Positions 387 to 10,802 of a stretch of 46,960 bases of DNA are shown here, in pieces; within the stretch, counting starts at the first letter, position 1; each line of letters opens with the position of its first letter. Both the position numbers and the translations under genes were made by a program. The stretch spans positions 1 to 46,960 of the forward strand of contig CACWID010000030.1 in NCBI GenBank assembly GCA_902760865.1, in the 5' to 3' direction. The notes under the pieces are model-generated. The model saw nothing but the letters and a program-made list of their open reading frames with translations, was not told the DNA's origin and made no database searches. This stretch comes from an uncultured Bacteroidales bacterium (GTDB lineage: Bacteria > Bacteroidota > Bacteroidia > Bacteroidales > Muribaculaceae).

Positions 387-2567
<2,181 letters not shown>

Positions 2568-2580
2568 CCTCACGCACCTC

Positions 2581-2640
2581 ACGCTAAGTCGCCAAGACGC
2601 TAAGAATTATAAAAAACTTAGCGTCTTGGCGACTTAGCGT
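2581..2640. repeat. Perfect 24-bp inverted repeat between convergent genes
   Basis: ACGCTAAGTCGCCAAGACGC plus TAAG (2581-2604) is the exact reverse complement of 2617-2640, with a 12-base A/T loop. Each arm itself carries CTTAGCG twice. It sits between the GH97 stop and the tRNA-Asp gene and could act as a two-way terminator. A single arm with two changed bases recurs at 40191-40215, so the arm is a dispersed repeat and not just a local hairpin. Confidence 0.85.
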
Positions 2641-2672
2641 GTGGGGGCGTTCCTATAGAGGGGTAGGAGCAT

Positions 2673-2709
2673 AAAAAAGAATGGGCAAGCAGCCGAAGCA
2701 TACTTACCC
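2673..2709 (-). terminator. Terminator of tRNA-Asp
   Basis: Read on the minus strand, GGGTAAG pairs with CTTGCCC, an inner GC-TTCG-GC caps the hairpin, and a T-rich run follows (the A-run at 2673-2678). It lies 18 bases past the tRNA 3' end. Confidence 0.75.
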
Positions 2710-2726
2710 AAATCCTCTCTCCACTG

Positions 2727-2800
2727 CGGTGCGTACGTGACTCGAACACGCGACCCCCTGCGTGACAGGCAGGTATTCTAACCAACTGAACTAACGCACC
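2727..2800 (-). tRNA. tRNA-Asp (GTC)
   Basis: On the minus strand GGTGCGT pairs with ACGCACC as the acceptor stem. The D arm carries GTTGGTTAG. The anticodon arm is CCTGC-CTGTCAC-GCAGG, giving anticodon GTC. The T arm has GTTCGAGT and the discriminator base is G, as usual for tRNA-Asp. CCA is not encoded (the next bases read CAG), so it must be added after transcription. Confidence 0.95.
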
Positions 2801-2842
2801 ATCATGTGAATGCAATGGTTAATTTCTTTCCCAAAGCGACTG

Positions 2843-2873
2843 CAAAGGTACTGCAAGTTTTTGAACTGACAAA
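2843..2873 (-). promoter_or_regulatory. Promoter of tRNA-Asp
   Basis: On the minus strand TTTG (2870-2873), 19 bp, then TACCTTTG (2843-2850) matches the Bacteroidota primary sigma consensus closely. Confidence 0.8.
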
Positions 2874-3038
2874 GGATTTTGGCGAAAATTTTTCAAAAAA
2901 ATATCACACCATCAATTAATCATCTGATAAACAGCACAATAGAATAATCAACTATTGGCACTCATAAGATCATCTGATGATGTGATATAGAAAAATGAAA
3001 CAGGTGATTTGATTTCTAACTCCTAACTTCTAACTTAT

Positions 3039-5348
3039 TTACAGTCTTTCCTTCTCGCTGGCGCCTGCTCCGGTGCCCTTGTACTTGCTCGAAGTGGCGT
3101 TGAACTTGTAGCGGACGGTGAATTCCACCTCGCGGACATCACGGCGCTGGGTCTGGCAGATGTTGCGCAAGCCGTAGCGCACCTTGTAATGCTCCTGCGA
3201 GTTGAACAGGTTGTGACCAGTCACCTGGATGGACAGGCGGTCGTTCAGGAAGGTCTTGGTGGCGCCGATGTCTAGCAGATAGAGTGGCTCGGAGATGGTG
3301 ACGTTTTCCATATCGCCGCGACTCATGAAATTGAAGTTGACATTGGCCGTCAAGGTGGACAGAATCTGGAAATTGTTGCTGAACTGCACGAGGTAGAGCG
3401 GATTCTTGGGGGAGATGAAACCGATGGGTGACGGAATCTTGATCCACTCCTTGATCATGCCCAGCGTCAATGACGGCTGGTAGAGTCCGAAGCGGGGTGA
3501 GAAGGTGAGCATCACGCGCATGGCATCCTTGTGGTCCACATTCTCTTTAGTCATCAGGGTGGTGGCCTCGCTGCCGGGTATCTCATGAGCCACGTTGACA
3601 ATCACGTCACGGTCGTGCTTGTAGGCCAGCATCAGGTTGACCCACTTGTACATCGCCATGAGCGACACCTCGTTGTTGATGGTGGGCTTGAGCAGGGGGT
3701 TGCCGCTGTCCCACGTGAAACGGTTGGCATAGGTGACGCTGTTTCGCAGTTGCCAATAGCCGGGACGTTTAATCTTCATCGCATAGTTCAGCATCAGCTG
3801 CACATTGCCCGCCCGTGCCACCAGGCCCACGCTGGGGAAGAAGTGGTGGTAATTGCGGCTCTGCTCGGCCATGTGTACGCCCTGGCTGTAGTAATCGGTG
3901 TTGACGTTCTCGTTGCGCAGGCCCACCTTCAACTGGCCGAAAGGCAGCGTGTGGCCGTACTCGGCAAAGAAGATGTAGTTGCGCTCCTTCTGCTCGGTGA
4001 AGGATGTGGGGACGACCTGCTCGGGGTTAATGTAGTCATCGTTGCGGCGCGTGTGGTCATACTCACTGCCCACCTGCAGATTGCCGCCCCACAGAGACCA
4101 TGAGAGGACGAGTTTGGCCGCCCACAGCTGGTTGCGAATCACGCTGGTGCTGGTGACGGTGCGGCTTTCCCATTCTTGGCTCACCTCATCGTTGAACTGG
4201 CTCTTGCGTTCCTTGTGGAAGACATAGTCGGTATTGAAATCGATCGACGTCTTGCCCACCTTACCATTATAGTAGGCATTGAGGGTGTGAGGCATATTGA
4301 ACTTGCTGGACATGTGCATATCATTTTCCAAATGGTCATAAAACTCGCCGTTGGCCATGACGTCGGCGGTGAAGGTGCCGCGGGAGCGGTTCAGGAAAAA
4401 AGCCTTGGTGTCATAGCGGAAGCCCATCGAGTGGTTGTCATTGAAGATATAGTTCACGCCCGCCGAGGTGTAAATCGAGTTGTGGTGGGTCTTGATGTCG
4501 GAATGTTCATTCATGCGCCATGTGGTGTCGGCCTGCACGTCAAAAATGAAATCGTCATTTTCCAGGTACTTGTCATCATTGTACCATACGCTGCCGAACA
4601 CGTCCAGCCCCCGGTGGCGGTAGTTCCAGTTGAGGCCCAGCGCCAGGTCGGGCCCCTCGCCCACATAGTAACTGGCTTGGGTGTTGAAGCTGAAGCCCTC
4701 GCCCTGGGGACGCTTGGTCTTGATGAGGATGACCGACTCAACCGTCGCGTCATACTTCGCTCCAGGGCTGGTGATCAGTTCAACGCTCTGGATGTCCTCG
4801 CTGCTGATCTGGTCCAGCTCGGTCTGGGTTTGGAGTTTGCGGCCGTTGATGTAGATGAGCGGCGTGCCCTTGCCGAAAACCTCCAGTCCGTCCTTCTTGC
4901 GCTGCACGCCAGGCAGGTTCTCGAGCACAGCCTTGGCGGTGCCCACCTTGCTCAACAGTGTGTTCTCCACCTCGGTCTTGAGGCCCTCGGTCGTCAGTTT
5001 GAAAGCGGGTCGCTGGCCCTTGACCACGACTTCGCCCAGCATGGTCGCCTCGGGCTCCAGTGTGATGGTGCCCAAGTCGCTGCCCACGGCATCCAGCACC
5101 CGCGTCTTGTAGCCCAGATAGGAAATTTTGATAAGTGGCTTGGCAGCATGGCCCGTGAGCGTGAAGTGGCCGTCGGTGTCGGTCGTCGTTCCTGCCACAA
5201 AGGCGCTGTCACTGGCATTGAGCAGCACCACGTTAGCAAAGGGGACCGGAGCCTGCGTCTCATCGACCACCCGTCCAGTAAAAGTGCTTGCTGCAACAGG
5301 CATCACAGCCAGCATTGACATCAGTAATGTAAAAAAGTGTCTTCTCAT
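3039..5348 (-). CDS. Outer-membrane beta-barrel protein with carboxypeptidase-like domain (paralogue 1)
   Basis: 769 residues. A signal peptide (ends near AVMPVAAS) is followed by a carboxypeptidase-regulatory-like beta-sandwich (about 22-105: TFTGRVVDE...GTTTDTDGHFTL...YLGYKT). Next comes a TonB plug-like segment (about 107-215: EVVVKGQRP, LENLPGV, PLIYINGRKL, DIQSVELITSPGAKYD) and a long aromatic-rich C-terminal barrel of the outer-membrane beta-barrel type (OMP_b-brl_3). It is not SusC-like and has no SusD partner. The paralogue at 7491-9806 is similar along its whole length; both end in closely related KYKGTGAG tails. The ligand is unknown. Its upstream region shares two operator-like sites with the paralogue, so the two are probably co-regulated. 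Confidence 0.88.
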   Translation of the reverse strand: MRRHFFTLLMSMLAVMPVAASTFTGRVVDETQAPVPFANVVLLNASDSAFVAGTTTDTDGHFTLTGHAAKPLIKISYLGYKTRVLDAVGSDLGTITLEPEATMLGEVVVKGQRPAFKLTTEGLKTEVENTLLSKVGTAKAVLENLPGVQRKKDGLEVFGKGTPLIYINGRKLQTQTELDQISSEDIQSVELITSPGAKYDATVESVILIKTKRPQGEGFSFNTQASYYVGEGPDLALGLNWNYRHRGLDVFGSVWYNDDKYLENDDFIFDVQADTTWRMNEHSDIKTHHNSIYTSAGVNYIFNDNHSMGFRYDTKAFFLNRSRGTFTADVMANGEFYDHLENDMHMSSKFNMPHTLNAYYNGKVGKTSIDFNTDYVFHKERKSQFNDEVSQEWESRTVTSTSVIRNQLWAAKLVLSWSLWGGNLQVGSEYDHTRRNDDYINPEQVVPTSFTEQKERNYIFFAEYGHTLPFGQLKVGLRNENVNTDYYSQGVHMAEQSRNYHHFFPSVGLVARAGNVQLMLNYAMKIKRPGYWQLRNSVTYANRFTWDSGNPLLKPTINNEVSLMAMYKWVNLMLAYKHDRDVIVNVAHEIPGSEATTLMTKENVDHKDAMRVMLTFSPRFGLYQPSLTLGMIKEWIKIPSPIGFISPKNPLYLVQFSNNFQILSTLTANVNFNFMSRGDMENVTISEPLYLLDIGATKTFLNDRLSIQVTGHNLFNSQEHYKVRYGLRNICQTQRRDVREVEFTVRYKFNATSSKYKGTGAGASEKERL

Positions 5349-5387
5349 TTGTCTATAGGTTTTATTGAGTTATCATCTTACCGGTGG

Positions 5388-5484
5388 CAATAGTATCCTA
5401 CCGTTTTCCCTATAGACGCACACCGAGGGGTGAAAAGTTGCAACCTTTTACCTATAAGTTTTTATTTTCACACTTTAGGGTGTT
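5388..5484 (-). promoter_or_regulatory. Promoter with two CACCC-N4-GTG sites, beta-barrel gene 1
   Basis: Read towards the gene, CACCCTAAAGTGTG (5471-5484) and CACCCCTCGGTGTG (5419-5432) lie 52 bp apart with a shared TGCAAC block between them, followed by a -7-like TACTATTG (5388-5395). No good -33 element is present. The gene at 7491-9806 has the same arrangement (sites 50 bp apart, near site 24 bp from its -7), so this looks like an activator-dependent promoter. Confidence 0.6.
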
Positions 5485-5496
5485 AAAAATAGTGCT

Positions 5497-5529
5497 CTGT
5501 AACGGCAAATAAAATAGCGTTACGGAGGA
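5497..5529. repeat. 33-bp palindromic repeat, left flank of ATPase gene
   Basis: CTCTGTAACG and CGTTACGGAG bound a 33-bp unit with an A/T-rich centre. Units of the same length and boundaries occur at 7036-7068 and 7090-7122 on the other side of the ATPase gene. It lies 12 bp after the distal operator-like site of the neighbouring promoter, at the point where the upstream regions of the two beta-barrel paralogues stop resembling each other. Confidence 0.8.
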
Positions 5530-5544
5530 GTAAAATGTGTATCT

Positions 5545-6963
5545 TTATTGGAATAAATCATCAAGATTAATCACCTTTGGAATACTGTCAGAATAAGCAT
5601 TTTGTTTGATTCCAGACGAGGCGACCATCGTTATCATCAATGCTTTGCGTGTTCCCGTTTCACTCCTGAACTGTTCCTGTCGTTCTATCAAGTGTTGGTA
5701 ATAATCTTTTTTGATTTCATAAGGAGTCAATGAATACTTCATTTCGCACAAGTTAATGACTTGGTCGCGGCGATCAATCACCATATCAATCTGTGCTTTA
5801 TTGTCATCATTTCGGCTACGCCATGAGCAGACGTTACTCAGGATACCAGCGATGCCTAATGCCTGTTTCAACTGGGGTACATGTGTAAAGCAGACTTGTT
5901 CAAACGCATATCCGCTCCATGCACGTCGTGCGGGATTGTCTATCATATTGCTCCATGTGTGTTCATCGTTGTGAGATGTTCCTGCGACAAAATGCAAATA
6001 GAAAAGGATGTATAAGTCACATAATTGATACATAACATCACGCTCCTTTTTCCCAAAACCCTTGTACCGACGCACAAAGTCACAACTGCATAGGTTATTG
6101 AGAATTTCGGTAAGCATACCGCCATCGTACATTTTGAGCGCTTGTCGGATTTCGTTACGAGTCATTCCCTGACCTCGCTTAGCTAATAAATTGACCACAT
6201 TTCGATAATTGGTTGAATCATTGAACAGGGAACGGAATAGGAAAGTATACTCGGTTCTCAAAGGAGCATTAATACCGAAAAACAAATCATCTATGTTTTG
6301 GTACACACTTTTGTCTTTCCTGAGCATACTCAAGTAGTAGGGCGTTCCTCCCGTTACCATGTAGCAATCCACAATCTGTTGGCGGTTCCATCCCATTCCA
6401 GCATGTTTTAGATACGTTTCTGTTTCATGCAATGTGAATTGCTCAAGTTTGATACTGCACGTGAGCCGGTTGTATAATCCTCCCTTGTTGCCTATAAGTT
6501 TGCTCATCATCCAAGTAGTGGCAGAGCCGCAGACAACAAGTTTGAGATTATTACGTGTGGAGGCAAACATGTTCCAAAATGACTCCAAGGCCTGCAGGAA
6601 CTTTGAGCGGGGTGCATCCATCCAGGGCAATTCATCAAAGAAGATAATGATTCTTTCCTTATTGAGATTAGAAATATAATGCTCCAGTTGGTCAAATGCC
6701 TCAAACCACGTGTTAGGGATTGGATATACACTGTTGGCGTATTTGTTGAGTTGCTTGTTGAACAAGGCCAACTGGTCGCGACGCGATCCTTGATATATGC
6801 CAGATGTGTAAAAGTCAAAATTATCACCATAGAATTGTTTCACGAGGAAAGTTTTGCCAATCCTGCGACGGCCGTACACGGCAATAAACTCGGCTTTGTC
6901 TGATTCGGTACAAGCCTGGAGAATTCCAATTTCCCGTTTCCTACCAATGATATCGTTTGCCAT
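5545..6963 (-). CDS. AAA ATPase with PD-(D/E)XK nuclease-like C-terminus (ATPase_2/DUF234 type)
   Basis: 472 residues. The start at 6963 (MANDIIGRKREIGIL) is chosen because this is where family homology begins and a -7 element lies 23 bp upstream; an in-frame ATG 54 bases earlier would lie upstream of that promoter. The Walker A is GRRRIGKT (31-38) and the Walker B is IIIFFDE (105-111). A winged-helix-like part follows (about 255-305). The C-terminal domain carries Asp393, Asp397 and Glu407-Met-Lys409 with a helix Glu355 before them, the pattern of PD-(D/E)XK nuclease folds proposed for DUF234. Such proteins occur in many copies in archaea and Bacteroidales and their role is unclear. Here the gene is enclosed by palindromic 33-bp repeats and splits a paralogous gene pair, which suggests a mobile or self-regulating cassette. 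Function is inferred. Confidence 0.85.
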   Translation of the reverse strand: MANDIIGRKREIGILQACTESDKAEFIAVYGRRRIGKTFLVKQFYGDNFDFYTSGIYQGSRRDQLALFNKQLNKYANSVYPIPNTWFEAFDQLEHYISNLNKERIIIFFDELPWMDAPRSKFLQALESFWNMFASTRNNLKLVVCGSATTWMMSKLIGNKGGLYNRLTCSIKLEQFTLHETETYLKHAGMGWNRQQIVDCYMVTGGTPYYLSMLRKDKSVYQNIDDLFFGINAPLRTEYTFLFRSLFNDSTNYRNVVNLLAKRGQGMTRNEIRQALKMYDGGMLTEILNNLCSCDFVRRYKGFGKKERDVMYQLCDLYILFYLHFVAGTSHNDEHTWSNMIDNPARRAWSGYAFEQVCFTHVPQLKQALGIAGILSNVCSWRSRNDDNKAQIDMVIDRRDQVINLCEMKYSLTPYEIKKDYYQHLIERQEQFRSETGTRKALMITMVASSGIKQNAYSDSIPKVINLDDLFQ

Positions 6964-6985
6964 AATCTCTAATGTTTTTAGGCCA

Positions 6986-7014
6986 CAAATATAATGAATT
7001 TTTGAGTTACGGAG
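6986..7014 (-). promoter_or_regulatory. Promoter of the ATPase gene overlapped by a repeat half-site
   Basis: TATATTTG (6986-6993, minus strand) fits the -7 consensus. No TTG lies 19-21 bp upstream. Instead a CTCCGTAAC half-site (7006-7014) starts 12 bp upstream, towards the -33 region, so whatever binds the repeat would control this promoter. Confidence 0.55.
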
Positions 7015-7122
7015 CATTAAAATTGAAAAATAGTGCTCCGTAACGCCATTTTTTTTGATGTTACGGAGGGGCGAAATATAAAAATAGAGCTCCGTAACGC
7101 CTAAAAAAAACGCGTTACGGAG
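7006..7122. repeat. 54-bp-periodic palindromic array upstream of the ATPase gene
   Basis: GTTACGGAG occurs at 7006, 7060 and 7114, exactly 54 bp apart. Its inverse CTCCGTAAC occurs at 7036 and 7090, also 54 bp apart. This gives alternating palindromes: two 33-bp units (7036-7068, 7090-7122) and two 39-bp units (7006-7044 and 7060-7098). The half-sites are kept while the A/T spacers vary, as expected for protein-binding sites or a mobile palindrome. Confidence 0.85.
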
Positions 7123-7149
7123 CTACTAAAGAATATAAACATCACTTTT

Positions 7150-7494
7150 TTATAATTGATAGACCCGGGTCGTGCCGTCGGGCTCCAAGGGCGCGCAGGG
7201 CTGTTGTAACAGCACGATGTAGAAACGTGGCAGGTGCTGCACGGGCGGGTGTTCAGCGATGTAGCGGTCAATCTTGCTGCGGGCGGCAGCACGCAGTGTC
7301 TCGTCCTCGCAAGGAATTAGCCGCTCTTTCTCGACAAATGCGATCTGCCAGAAAGCCATATAACCGATAATGTATCGCTCTACAGCCTGCTCTACACTAT
7401 CGTCGTGAACGAGTTGATTGATGGTGAATGATTCACTCTCACAAACGGCCACGACAGCCCATGTCAAATCAACGTATCTCAACTCCTGTTTCAT
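7150..7494 (-). CDS. Hypothetical protein, coupled to beta-barrel gene 2
   Basis: 114 residues, no recognised domain, no signal peptide and no membrane segment. It is acidic and helix-prone in its middle part. Its ATG overlaps the TGA of the upstream beta-barrel gene by four bases (ATGA), so it is translated by coupling in the same operon. Paralogue 1 has no such partner. It may be a cytoplasmic accessory factor; no function can be assigned. Confidence 0.75.
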   Translation of the reverse strand: MKQELRYVDLTWAVVAVCESESFTINQLVHDDSVEQAVERYIIGYMAFWQIAFVEKERLIPCEDETLRAAARSKIDRYIAEHPPVQHLPRFYIVLLQQPCAPLEPDGTTRVYQL

Positions 7495-9806
7495 AATCTG
7501 TTTTTCTCGTCATTCCCTGCTCCGGTGCCCTTGTACTTGCTGCGTGTCCAATTGAAGTGATAACGCACGGTCACTTCGGCATAGCGGGTTTCGTTGGTGC
7601 GGTGCTGCCATAGAGTCAATTCACCGAAGTGTACCAGCACGTCCTGGCCATTGCGATGGAAGAGGTCATGCCCCGCAACCTTAACTGACAGTCGGTCATT
7701 AAAGAACGTCTTGGTCAGGCCGATGTATAGGTCAAGTTGATGGCTACGGCTGCAAATGTTCTCGCTGTCGCCCTTGCCCTGCCAATCGAGATTGAGAGAT
7801 CCAGTGAATGTTGGCATGAATTTGAAGTTGTTGTTCCACTGGGCCATGAAAATGGGCCTTGATGGGCTATAAATACCATCAGGCATGGGAATCTTCATCC
7901 ATTCTTTCATCATACTGATCGTGAGTTGTGGGTTCCAGATACCAATGTGTGGTGCAGCGGTTAGGCTAAGGCTCAACACATCCTTTTTGTCGATATTCTC
8001 TTGTATAATGAGCGTTGTGGCTTCGTGCCCCTCGACCTGACGTCCCAACTGTAGAACGACATCCTTGAGGTGGGAGTAACTTATGTTAAGAGAGAGAACT
8101 TTCCAAGTGGCATCCAGCGACACGTTGTTAATGATGGTGGGTTTCAGGAATGGGTTGCCAGACTGCCAAGTGAAGCGGTTAGAGTAATAAGTCTTGTTAC
8201 TTAGTTCAAAATAGGTAGGGCGGCGAATTTTCATCGCATAGCCTAACATGGCATTGACGTTGCCCACTTGAGTCGATAACGAGAGGCTAGGGAACAGATG
8301 GTTTTGATGGCGGCTTTGCCCGTCGATGTGAACGCCTTGACTGTAATAGTCGGTGGTGACATATTCGTCACGCAATCCACCGCTTAGCTGTCCGATAGGT
8401 GTCAATCGGCTGTACTCGATAAAGGCGCTGTAGTTGCGCTCCTTGACCTCGGTGTAACTTGATGGAACAATTTGCTCAGGGTTGAGGTAATCATCGTTGC
8501 GGTGGGTGTAGTCAATCTCACTGCCCACCGACAGGTTACCACCCCATAATGGCCATGAGAGCACGAGTTTGCCGGCAAACAGTTCATTTCTCACGGTATT
8601 TTCGCTGGTTACTGTGCGGTCTTCCCACTCTTGGCTCTCCTCAAGGCTACATTCACTTTCGCGGTTTTTGGTAAAATAGTAATCGGCATTGAAATCAATG
8701 TTGGTCTTGCCCACCTGGCCATTATAATAGAGATTGAGCGAGTGCGGCATGTTGTGTCTTGTCTTATTCTTACTATTGGTCATCAGGCTGTCGTAGAAAT
8801 TGCCGTTGGCGGTCACTTCGGCAGCAAAAAAGTCTTTGTCAACATCCTTGAGACGGATGCTGCTGTTATATTGGATGCCCATCGTGTGCTTATCATTAAA
8901 CTGGTAATTGGCTCCAAATACCAAGCGCAAGATATTGTAATTGCCCTGGCTGCGGCCGTGATTGTCCTGATGCCACAAGGTGTCGGCGGCGACATCCTGG
9001 GTGATGCGGTACTTCTGCAACCAGCCGTTCTCAAAGTCGCTGACTGTACCGAAGACGTCCAATCCCAGGAGACGGTAATTCCAAAGAAAGGCATTATAGG
9101 TGCGGGACATTTCGCCCTGGAAGAAACTGCTGCGCAGGTGACCGCCCCATCCTTCACCCAGTGGCTTGCGTGTCTTAATCCGAATCACGCTTTGCACCGA
9201 CGCATCATACTTGGCACCAGGGTTGTTGATGACCTCGACACTTACGATGTCTTGTGATTTCAATTCATTGAGTTCCGACGCGTCGCGCATCAGGCGGTTA
9301 TTGATGTAAATGAGAGGTTTGCCCTTGCCGAACACTTCAATACAGCCCTCTTTGCTCAAGATGCCAGGAACATTTCTCAATACGTCCTCAGCAGTTCCCA
9401 ATTGACTCAAAATCGATCCCTCGATAGTGGTAAGTAGCCCTTCTTTACCTAATTTATGGACGGGACGATATCCCTTGACAACTACTTCATCGAGCAATGC
9501 CGCGTCAGGTTCCATTACAATACTACCCATGTCACCTGGAGTCACGTCAATGCACAGGGTCTTGTATCCCACGCTGGAGAATTTCAATATACCAGTTTCC
9601 AACTCTCCAGTAATGGAGAAGGCACCATCTTCACCAGTTACAGTGCCTTGGACAAAAGTGGAATCAACGCTGTTGATCAATAATACGTTCACATAGGGCA
9701 TCGGCACCTGGTTCTCATCCAGGACACAGCCTGTGAATGTGGCGGCCCTGGCCATGGCAATAGCCATCAGCAACGCAATTGTAGCAATACTCAGTCTTTT
9801 AATCAT
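7491..9806 (-). CDS. Outer-membrane beta-barrel protein with carboxypeptidase-like domain (paralogue 2)
   Basis: 771 residues from the ATG at 9806 (MIKRLSIATIALLMAIAMARA signal peptide). An in-frame ATG 30 bases further upstream is less likely because the signal peptide would not be N-terminal. Domain order is as in paralogue 1: carboxypeptidase-like sandwich (TFTGCVLDENQVP), plug-like segment (EVVVKGYRPVHKL, LRNVPGI, PLIYINNRLM, NNPGAKYDASV) and beta-barrel. The two proteins share many blocks (GNPFLKPTI versus GNPLLKPTI, MKEWMKIP versus IKEWIKIP) but are clearly diverged, so the duplication is old. It forms an operon with the 114-residue protein and is divergent from the PAS-LuxR regulator gene. 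Confidence 0.88.
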   Translation of the reverse strand: MIKRLSIATIALLMAIAMARAATFTGCVLDENQVPMPYVNVLLINSVDSTFVQGTVTGEDGAFSITGELETGILKFSSVGYKTLCIDVTPGDMGSIVMEPDAALLDEVVVKGYRPVHKLGKEGLLTTIEGSILSQLGTAEDVLRNVPGILSKEGCIEVFGKGKPLIYINNRLMRDASELNELKSQDIVSVEVINNPGAKYDASVQSVIRIKTRKPLGEGWGGHLRSSFFQGEMSRTYNAFLWNYRLLGLDVFGTVSDFENGWLQKYRITQDVAADTLWHQDNHGRSQGNYNILRLVFGANYQFNDKHTMGIQYNSSIRLKDVDKDFFAAEVTANGNFYDSLMTNSKNKTRHNMPHSLNLYYNGQVGKTNIDFNADYYFTKNRESECSLEESQEWEDRTVTSENTVRNELFAGKLVLSWPLWGGNLSVGSEIDYTHRNDDYLNPEQIVPSSYTEVKERNYSAFIEYSRLTPIGQLSGGLRDEYVTTDYYSQGVHIDGQSRHQNHLFPSLSLSTQVGNVNAMLGYAMKIRRPTYFELSNKTYYSNRFTWQSGNPFLKPTIINNVSLDATWKVLSLNISYSHLKDVVLQLGRQVEGHEATTLIIQENIDKKDVLSLSLTAAPHIGIWNPQLTISMMKEWMKIPMPDGIYSPSRPIFMAQWNNNFKFMPTFTGSLNLDWQGKGDSENICSRSHQLDLYIGLTKTFFNDRLSVKVAGHDLFHRNGQDVLVHFGELTLWQHRTNETRYAEVTVRYHFNWTRSKYKGTGAGNDEKNRL

Positions 9807-9833
9807 AATGTTTCTATTTTGGTTGTTCGAGTG

Positions 9834-9929
9834 CAAAATTATCTAGACAAACCTCAATAGAGACACGCACTAAAGGGTGAAAGGTTGCAGTATCGGGGCG
9901 AAGAAATCGCATTTTCACACTTTAGGGTG
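9834..9929 (-). promoter_or_regulatory. Promoter with two CACCC-N4-GTG sites, beta-barrel gene 2
   Basis: Read towards the gene, CACCCTAAAGTGTG (9916-9929) and CACCCTTTAGTGCG (9866-9879) are 50 bp apart with a shared TGCAAC block, then a -7 element TAATTTTG (9834-9841) 24 bp from the near site. The distal 14-bp site is identical to that at 5471-5484. The region is shared with the divergent regulator gene. Confidence 0.62.
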
Positions 9930-9988
9930 TTAAATTACCTTGTGGCGTGTTACGACTTCTTAAGGATAAGGCTTTTTAAGTTTCACCA

Positions 9989-10020
9989 TTTGACGGAATT
10001 GGGCATTTGGGGTACATTTG
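9989..10020 (+). promoter_or_regulatory. Promoter of the PAS-LuxR regulator gene
   Basis: TTTG (9989-9992), 20 bp, then TACATTTG (10013-10020), a close Bacteroidota match 26 bp before the start codon. Confidence 0.75.
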
Positions 10021-10046
10021 CATGACTATTAACCTGCAAGACTGAT

Positions 10047-10802
10047 ATGGCAAAAATTGAGGATTTCTTCACGTTGACCAACAGTGTAGAGGGCATCGAT
10101 GATGAGCAATACCGCCACCTTGAGCCCATGATACGTGCCATCGATGCGATGGCCAATGCTACCTACCAGAGCATTTATGTCATCGACTACCTGAAGCATG
10201 GTTTTCTGCATGTGGCGAGTAATCCGCTGTTCCTGTGTGGGCATACGGCCGAGGAAGTCCGCCAGATGGGCTATCGTCTGTATATCGATCATGTCCCTGC
10301 TGAGGAGCAGATTATGCTCACTGAGATCAATGAGGTGGGCTTCAAGCGCTTCAACGAGGAGCCCATGGCTGAGCGCAGCCGCTGCTTCATGAGCTACGAC
10401 TTCCATATTGTGAATAGCGAGGACTGCTATTTGGTAAACCACAAGATTACACCGTTTGCACTTGCGCCCGACGGACGTGCCTGGTTGGCGATGTGCGTCG
10501 TGTCATTGTCGCACCACACCACTCCCGGTCACGTCGAGTTCCGCAAGAAGGGTCAATCCATTTACTGGGAATATGACTTGAACTGTCACCGCTGGCAGGA
10601 ACGCAAAAGCGTAATCCTGCGCGGGCAGGAAAAGCAAGTGCTTATCCTCTCGGCTCAGGGATATACCGTGTCTCAGATAGCCGATAGGATGTGTCGCGCT
10701 GTGGATACCGTCAAGACCTATAAGCGTGCGCTGTTTGAGCGCTTGGGTGTGCGCAGCATTACCGAGGCCCTGACTGTTGCTACCAATCAGGGCCTGTTGT
10801 AG
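10047..10802 (+). CDS. PAS-like sensor with LuxR-type helix-turn-helix
   Basis: 251 residues, cytoplasmic. Residues about 20-165 look like a PAS-type sensor region (ANATYQSIYVIDYLKHGFLHVASNPLF is its start). Residues about 185-245 form a LuxR/GerE helix-turn-helix (KQVLILSAQGYTVSQIAD, then AVDTVKTYKRALFERLGV). There is no receiver domain with a phosphorylatable Asp, so it is probably a one-component regulator. It is divergent from beta-barrel gene 2 and the shared 240-bp spacer holds the paired CACCC-N4-GTG sites. It is therefore the first candidate for binding those sites and controlling both beta-barrel genes. This link is inferred from position alone. Confidence 0.82.
   Translation: MAKIEDFFTLTNSVEGIDDEQYRHLEPMIRAIDAMANATYQSIYVIDYLKHGFLHVASNPLFLCGHTAEEVRQMGYRLYIDHVPAEEQIMLTEINEVGFKRFNEEPMAERSRCFMSYDFHIVNSEDCYLVNHKITPFALAPDGRAWLAMCVVSLSHHTTPGHVEFRKKGQSIYWEYDLNCHRWQERKSVILRGQEKQVLILSAQGYTVSQIADRMCRAVDTVKTYKRALFERLGVRSITEALTVATNQGLL

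Follow-up and report, generated by a model that had tools for sequence, protein, structure and literature searches.

The stretch of DNA analysed here (the window) comprises the 46,960 nt of contig CACWID010000030.1 (assembly GCA_902760865.1) from an uncultured Bacteroidales bacterium of the Muribaculaceae. It carries a gene of the PDC-S27 family (hereafter S27) and, on both sides of this gene, a set of palindromes that are the subject of this report. The S27 gene lies on the minus strand at 5545-6963 (472 amino acids (aa), stop codon at 5545-5547), and its probable start is the ATG at 6963-6961, where the product begins MANDIIGR, rather than the ATG at 7017-7015, the first codon of a 490-aa open reading frame (ORF). 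Three palindromes of the form CTCYGTAAC-N15-GTTACGGAG, 33 bp each, are found at 5495-5527, 7036-7068 and 7090-7122. The first-pass annotation had given the length and the two right-hand positions correctly and had placed the start of the left palindrome at 5497 instead of 5495. This left unit stands 3' of the gene, has one arm mismatch and is oriented as the two upstream units are. On the 5' side of the gene the half-sites form an exact 54-bp lattice, as had been remarked, with GTTACGGAG at 7006, 7060 and 7114 and CTCCGTAAC at 7036 and 7090; the period is the sum of one 33-bp palindrome and one 21-bp spacer (7015-7035 and 7069-7089). The promoter-proximal half-site GTTACGGAG (7006-7014) lies 13-21 bp upstream of the first T of TATATTTG (6986-6993, minus strand), a TAnnTTTG-type sequence which we take to be a Bacteroidota-type -7 promoter box, and it fits the position over the -33 region that had been proposed for it. 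The dyad of the first upstream unit (7036-7068) is 59 bp from the same T. The sequence GTTACGGAGNANTAAAAT occurs both at 5519-5536, where it runs through the start of the spacer that follows the left unit (5528-5536), and at 7006-7023, i.e. on both sides of the cassette.

The half-site GTTACRGAG occurs seven times in the window compared to 0.46 expected, a number reached in 0 of 100 shuffles, and in the 3.35 Mb of its own genome the exact gapped palindrome is present at these three places only. The upstream regions of the two barrel genes of the locus have in common 24 bp at 100% and 32 bp at 78% identity. This similarity stops at 5487/9934 and the left arm starts at 5495, so the remark that similarity is lost where the left repeat starts holds to within a few bases.

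The S27 protein matches the PADLOC model PDC-S27 (PDLC04984) over its full length (aa 4-471, E 1.8e-198), and we assign it to this family by that match and by the fusion of an ATPase to a PD-(D/E)XK nuclease with intact active sites. The AlphaFold2 model (mean pLDDT 92.4, pTM 0.90) contains an ATPase domain, a winged helix and a nuclease domain, with limits as we read them from the modelled helices and strands. The ATPase domain (aa 1-230, 6274-6963, minus strand, as are all coding features given here) was recognised from invariant columns, the model and a clear match to Pfam ATPase_2 (E 1.5e-17), with Walker A GRRRIGKT at aa 31-38 and Walker B with D110 and E111. The winged helix (aa 250-314, 6022-6216) was taken from the model and includes a predicted recognition helix (aa 282-293, 6085-6120; from the model and from the covariation described below); IclR/MarR-type matches occur at the same place in two relatives (loci L087 and L043; L numbers denote loci and G numbers genomes). 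The PD-(D/E)XK domain (aa 344-472, 5548-5934; alignment and model) has D393 and E407-x-K409 in its active site. The Walker residues together with D393, E407 and K409 are invariant across 79 aligned sequences, which bears out the earlier description of an ATP-binding domain joined to a nuclease-like one. The DUF234 match stayed under its cut-off (17.6 versus 22.5 bits), and a search of NCBIfam with the protein gave zero matches. The best solved fold for the model is 2qen (E 4.6e-13). Profile matches to 2fna and 2qen end at positions 297-298 and thus leave the nuclease domain uncovered: these Walker ATPases (2qen is from P. abyssi), with chains of 350 and 357 residues, resemble S27 in having an ATPase followed by a helical/winged part, but the likeness stops before the nuclease domain.

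Upstream palindromes and lattices are common among S27 genes. The genus set held 90 S27 genes (the 30 loci returned and 60 picked, not strictly in order, from among the matches listed, leaving out those with in-frame stops), and the set from other genomes consisted of the best 80 of 584 matches, of which 78 were usable, since L120 and L129 have no 380-aa ORF; both sets lean to close relatives. Short flanks or N reduced the counts to 85/90, 74/78, 156/168, 117/122, 100/122 (where a 150-bp gap was also required) and 109/122. Thresholds for the palindrome score were picked by eye; the controls consisted of displaced windows, gene bodies and shuffled sequences. A 9-mer was repeated exactly at a distance of 50-57 bp upstream of 50 of 85 genus S27 genes, compared to 0/80, 2/79, 3/84 and 1/90 in the controls and 9/88 just downstream; the same test in other genomes gave 31 of 74 genes, compared to 0/65, 0/62, 0/74 and 0/78 in the controls and 2/77 downstream. 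An upstream palindrome with a score of at least 13 was present at 83 of 117 S27 genes (nonredundant at 80%), at 3 of 331 far windows and in none of 117 shuffles. When S27 genes were compared with other genes of the same loci that have an intergenic upstream region, strong palindromes were found at 70/100 versus 12/142 (Fisher 3e-24) and the 50-57-bp repeat at 51/100 versus 1/142 (Fisher 5e-23), the 100 S27 genes spanning several phyla. Ordinary intergenic terminators were rejected as an explanation on this comparison, as such palindromes are rare at the other genes. A CRISPR-like array, which would have identical repeats and unique spacers, was also rejected: the 21-bp spacers are alike, and what varies is the 15 bp between the two arms of a palindrome.

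The arrays are phased to the promoter. Of 168 S27 genes, 142 have the sequence TAnnTTTG no more than 75 bp upstream, and it occurs in 13 of 585 control windows. With 89 genes aligned on this box, the mean dyad score peaked at -31.5 (3.86) and -58 (3.36), the average in controls being 2.31; the two peaks are 26.5 bp apart, which is half of 53. Among the 90 genes that have a promoter box, 52 had a strong dyad between -66 and -50, and in 34 of these 52 it fell within -59.5 to -57 (p 9e-14 for 34/52 in 6 of 33 half-base positions, an interval picked after seeing the data). A/T-rich columns recur about every 10.5 bp, as judged by eye. The half-sites follow a loose grammar, with C/G-rich outer bases and an A-rich interior, and position -9 is A in 83% of them.

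This geometry bears on whether the palindromes act as RNA hairpins, either as terminators between operons or as a repeat RNA that controls the protein. In type III toxin-antitoxin systems such an RNA, from repeats transcribed ahead of the gene for an endoRNase toxin of the ToxN type, controls the toxin, and S27 resembles them as a gene with cognate tandem repeats. Long perfect hairpins and tandem repeats ahead of the gene would suit such a role, as would the array in Wolbachia phage WO, which stops a few bases before the start codon. In the Bacteroidota members, however, the array is separated from the gene by the promoter box, so it should be outside the transcript from that promoter; this position, and a PD-(D/E)XK domain in place of a ToxN-type one, separate S27 from type III systems. 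Furthermore, the sequence of the arms is conserved across phyla beyond mere pairing, the dyad in the spacer is as marked as the dyad in the unit, and Rfam matches at gathering score in 12 loci were three tRNAs only, with the window at 5300-7300 giving sub-threshold matches only. We therefore consider RNA hairpins improbable.

The palindrome sequence varies from gene to gene, paralogues included, and it tracks the protein. Among genes with a palindrome score of at least 11 (136 of 168; the pairs are non-independent), a palindrome was shared by 97% of 30 pairs at 90% protein identity or more, 87% of 45 pairs at 80-90%, 57% of 30 at 70-80%, 32% of 68 at 60-70%, 7% of 266 at 55-60%, 8.5% of 929 at 50-55%, 2.4% of 2926 at 45-50% and 0.8% of 4886 below 45%. 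The window's CTCCGTAAC is nevertheless kept beside some proteins that are 47-59% identical (L035, L114, L122, L124 and the Lachnospiraceae loci L153 and L165); in L153 and L165 one unit stands before what we read as a sigma-A-like promoter and another 5 bp after the stop codon. With overall identity controlled, the best 20-residue predictor of palindrome sharing was aa 277-296, i.e. the recognition helix, and over the same windows its maximum was reached by 3 of 1000 permutations (again of non-independent pairs). This suggests that the DNA address read by each S27 protein is private to that protein and lies beside the gene that encodes it. Two S27 genes of the same genome had a palindrome in common in 1 of 80 pairs, and cross-genome pairs at 40-63% identity in 46 of 2611, so that an exclusion of like palindromes within a genome is unsupported.

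Units often stand on both sides of the gene. Upstream and immediate downstream regions had an 11-mer in common at 56 of 156 S27 genes, compared to 3-8 of 143-160 controls. Direct repeats of at least 35 bp across the gene were present at 39 of 109 S27 genes and 1 of 81 displaced controls, and inverted repeats across the gene at 12 of 109. The first-listed bracketing repeat lay within 200 bp upstream in 27 of the 39 and further out in 12, and 19 of the 27 begin no more than 20 bp from the stop codon. The downstream copy begins at the stop codon or a few bases from it in L057, L064, L071, L091, L101, L141 and L170, and in L057 the stop codon is inside the copy. At ten loci (L037, L041, L063, L094, L095, L105, L137, L165, L167 and L173) we also observed that flanking DNA of ~80-400 bp beyond the palindromes is present in duplicate, one copy to either side of S27. 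All of these except L165 belong to the loci whose bracketing repeat lies further out; in these nine the duplicated flank measures 90-400 bp, and in L095 and L137 the duplicated DNA is, in our reading, apparently part of a neighbouring gene.

Among 101 genus genomes some S27 match was found in 77, the exact window palindrome in 20 and a close orthologue in seven, namely the window's own genome and six others at 90-97% identity. In 7/7 close orthologues units flank S27 on both sides (in four the left unit is degenerate in one arm), and all seven adjoin the same barrel gene. The idea of a nuclease/ATPase gene with its own recognition-like palindromes is borne out by these orthologues and extends to paralogues with other palindromes. 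The outcome that had been named as counting against it, repeats without the gene at unrelated positions, was observed in part: 13 of the 20 genomes with the exact palindrome, many of them incomplete assemblies, have no close orthologue. Two loci from these 13 genomes, L015 and L017, have 3-kb surroundings unlike the window locus. Here solo window-type palindromes follow related genes whose products end in VKEIK, away from the barrel locus; the two sites are akin to each other and not to window 2501-10500.

To avoid a bias from selecting on the palindrome, the barrel locus was surveyed with the neighbouring gene (window 7150-7900) as query. In the 26 loci read, S27 with an array was present in 5, units with no adjoining S27 in 11, units beside another ATPase in 4 and no such unit in 6. 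Empty sites beside the barrel gene, which strain comparisons had been suggested to look for, do exist. Of the 11 gene-free loci, 10 have at least one unit intact in both arms and one has a remnant. In G018 the left unit is joined via one spacer to the next unit, which matches the expectation for a clean loss. Other repeats replace the array at this locus in G073 (CCGTAACGC..GCGTTACGG, L209) and in G084 (a GC-rich palindrome, L216).

The other ATPase gene at the barrel locus, found amid array units in G020 (L223:4819-6210), G095, G058 and G057 (L224-L226), is PDC-S01 (DUF4143; PADLOC E 1.8e-113), 95-97% identical among the four genomes. The stretches read of G095, G058 and G057 contain no S27, and G020 has both genes. 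This occupancy by another gene, and the occurrence of units without S27, are what one would expect if the arrays were independent palindromic elements (REP/MITE-like) or phage or operon signals, beside which S27 survives by chance. On the other hand, the palindrome follows protein identity and the recognition helix and is phased to the S27 promoter, the window palindrome is at one locus only in its own genome, and same-genome copies differ, with the single shared pair in 80 given above. We consider this reading very unlikely.

Gene-free sites that keep units were seen at three loci: the barrel locus, phage WO and the site of G054, where a single unit stands in the place at which G081 and G020 have S27 with an array. 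The S27 gene of Wolbachia phage WO is 39% identical and follows a 56-bp tandem palindrome; its neighbours on both sides are head genes. Relatives without S27 have at the same place one unit (L263, L265) or more (L264, with another mobile gene), and the palindrome is of the ACCGCC/GGCGGT type with or without S27 (L254:2900-3000; L263:2211-2281; L265:1709-1760). Two other palindromes sought in the 101 genomes had copies without S27 within 1.5 kb, one in 1 of 3 genomes (G038) and the other in 3 of 10 (G053, G054 and G100); a further copy of the second, in G069, is on a contig too short beyond it.

The carrier genomes of the barrel locus fall into two groups, G000, G055, G053 and G064 versus G093, G020 and G094 (L023-L029). 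Between them the S27 proteins are 89-91% identical and the fourfold sites of the gene only 39-50% identical, which indicates strong protein constraint in long-separated lineages. Fourfold identity between the groups is 51-76% in the barrel gene and 38-44% in the short gene on the other side; in the pair G053-G093 it is 76% for the barrel gene and 43% for S27. By these substitution patterns, the histories of gene and flank disagree at the barrel locus, and either recombination of the flank or separate acquisition of S27 may account for this. The S27 tree mixes phyla (Bacillota needs 5 changes), a pattern that paralogy and binning errors can mimic. The near-identical S27 proteins of L131 and L132, from a Fibrobacter and a Lachnospiraceae metagenome-assembled genome, represent either a recent transfer or a binning error.

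These observations bear on the proposal that S27 is self-mobile, i.e. that the unit serves the nuclease/ATPase as a site of attachment or homing, beside or into which it inserts promoter and gene, and that a unit stays behind on excision. Almost identical direct copies that closely adjoin the promoter and the stop codon (as in L057), the empty sites at three loci, the gene-free copies of two other palindromes, the discordant histories of S27 and its flank and, with the caveats just given, the mixed phyla would all agree with it. Against it, the seven orthologues all have the same barrel gene as their neighbour, folds of a transposase or recombinase were not seen, and no fixed-length target duplication was established among the unit copies and duplicated flanks. 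Moreover, same-genome pairs at 70% identity or more were 0 of 98 among the 90 genus genes fetched, which is weak evidence because only ~2 were expected from the cross-genome rate. Self-mobility is possible, but we regard it as doubtful. The mobile cassette of the first-pass annotation therefore stands in part: direct copies often bracket the gene, and at three loci the gene is absent with units left. An extended version, in which the diversified unit would be operator, assembly lattice and attachment site of a self-addressed cassette whose moves leave unit scars and whose same-genome copies are insulated by differing addresses, appears rather unlikely.

The explanation that we favour, and consider probable, is that S27 proteins bind a private palindromic array and control their own promoter, and that the array often brackets a gene cassette that can be lost. 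The winged helix would bind the half-sites of the array, and several subunits would occupy a regular lattice of ~53-54 bp, or five helical turns, up to the promoter. From there the bound protein would control its own transcription, most likely negatively where a half-site covers the -33 region; autoregulation is supported indirectly by the promoter phasing and the recognition-helix covariation. About a quarter to a third of the S27 family members also have a unit copy 3' of the gene, so that promoter and gene would form a compact cassette between direct copies. This cassette may be lost by recombination between the copies, leaving units behind, which would best explain both the 3' copies in part of the family and the persistence of arrays without the gene. 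The ATPase and nuclease would constitute the effector, probably against invading DNA.

Several observations weigh against this explanation. Weak palindromes only (score below 11) were found at 18 of 117 nonredundant genes, and the 50-57-bp repeat is missing from about half of S27 genes. Of three members beyond the close family, all from archaea or a thermophile plasmid, Natronomonas has no palindrome, M. jannaschii one of A/T only and Rhodothermus one at the start codon. In the phasing analysis, the dyad scores at -84.5 (2.66) and -111 (2.71) are no higher than those of several unrelated columns, and the peaks at -37 (3.22) and +10.5 (2.98) are unexplained. The covariation with the recognition helix is of small size, with a partial r of 0.075 over 4636 pairs, 72 of which share a palindrome. 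Most S27 genes have no downstream copy, going by the 11-mer in 56/156, and 12 of the 39 bracketing repeats start beyond 200 bp upstream. Intact units at 10 of 11 gene-free barrel loci, in genomes where the exact palindrome occurs at no other locus, are not predicted by operator function alone, and such units may also function in termination or be bound by another protein. Finally, upstream palindromes are not exclusive to S27: PDC-S01 genes of the same genus (L266-L295; the longest Walker-A ORF per locus, 29 of 30 usable) had one scoring at least 13 in 11 of 29, more commonly than other genes (p 2e-4), with the 50-57-bp repeat in 2/29 and direct repeats across the gene in 6/29.

PDC-S01 is also described as an ATPase fused to the PD-(D/E)XK superfamily (PMC12988326), and it is thus like S27 in domain fusion and upstream palindromes but unlike it in the 50-57-bp repeat. 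RptR offers a precedent for an autoregulated operator in a defence island, with repeated operator sites in a defence promoter (PMC12255303). In that system a small, separate repressor does the binding and its 6-bp palindrome is conserved, whereas for S27 we presume that the ATPase-nuclease binds directly, at a site that differs from lineage to lineage. Integron cassettes, which go with an attC-type site and a tyrosine integrase, are usually promoterless, in contrast to the S27 genes, most of which have the promoter box counted above (142/168). In REP/RAYT systems a gene with an HUH (Y1) transposase domain has cognate palindromes that are dispersed. S27 differs from these in that the exact window palindromes are at one locus, with no dispersed copies in its own genome, and in that an HUH transposase domain was not found, the protein being an ATPase/winged helix-turn-helix/PD-(D/E)XK fusion.

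PDC-S27 itself is a PADLOC phage-defence candidate consisting of an ATPase and PD-(D/E)XK, of which 3503 archaeal and 4562 bacterial systems were counted (PMC12988326). For most such candidates validation is pending, and the defence role of PDC-S27 is only predicted (PMC12988326); for S27, 'defence' is a database label only. The accessible portions of PMC12988326 mention no cis array with PDC-S27 ('palindrom' occurs 0 times in its main text), our literature searches found no account of S27 arrays, and no report of a target, trigger or DNA site of PDC-S27 was found, including in the available parts of PMC12988326 and PMC13356809. What the present analysis contributes on this widespread, uncharacterised defence candidate is the array with its phasing, and sites at which the gene is missing. 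A private address beside each gene predicts the DNA that each S27 protein would bind, and the arrays would make available numerous naturally matched pairs of protein and DNA from which the specificity of winged helices could be decoded. The private address also makes it a testable question whether S27 is a defence gene or a selfish cassette.

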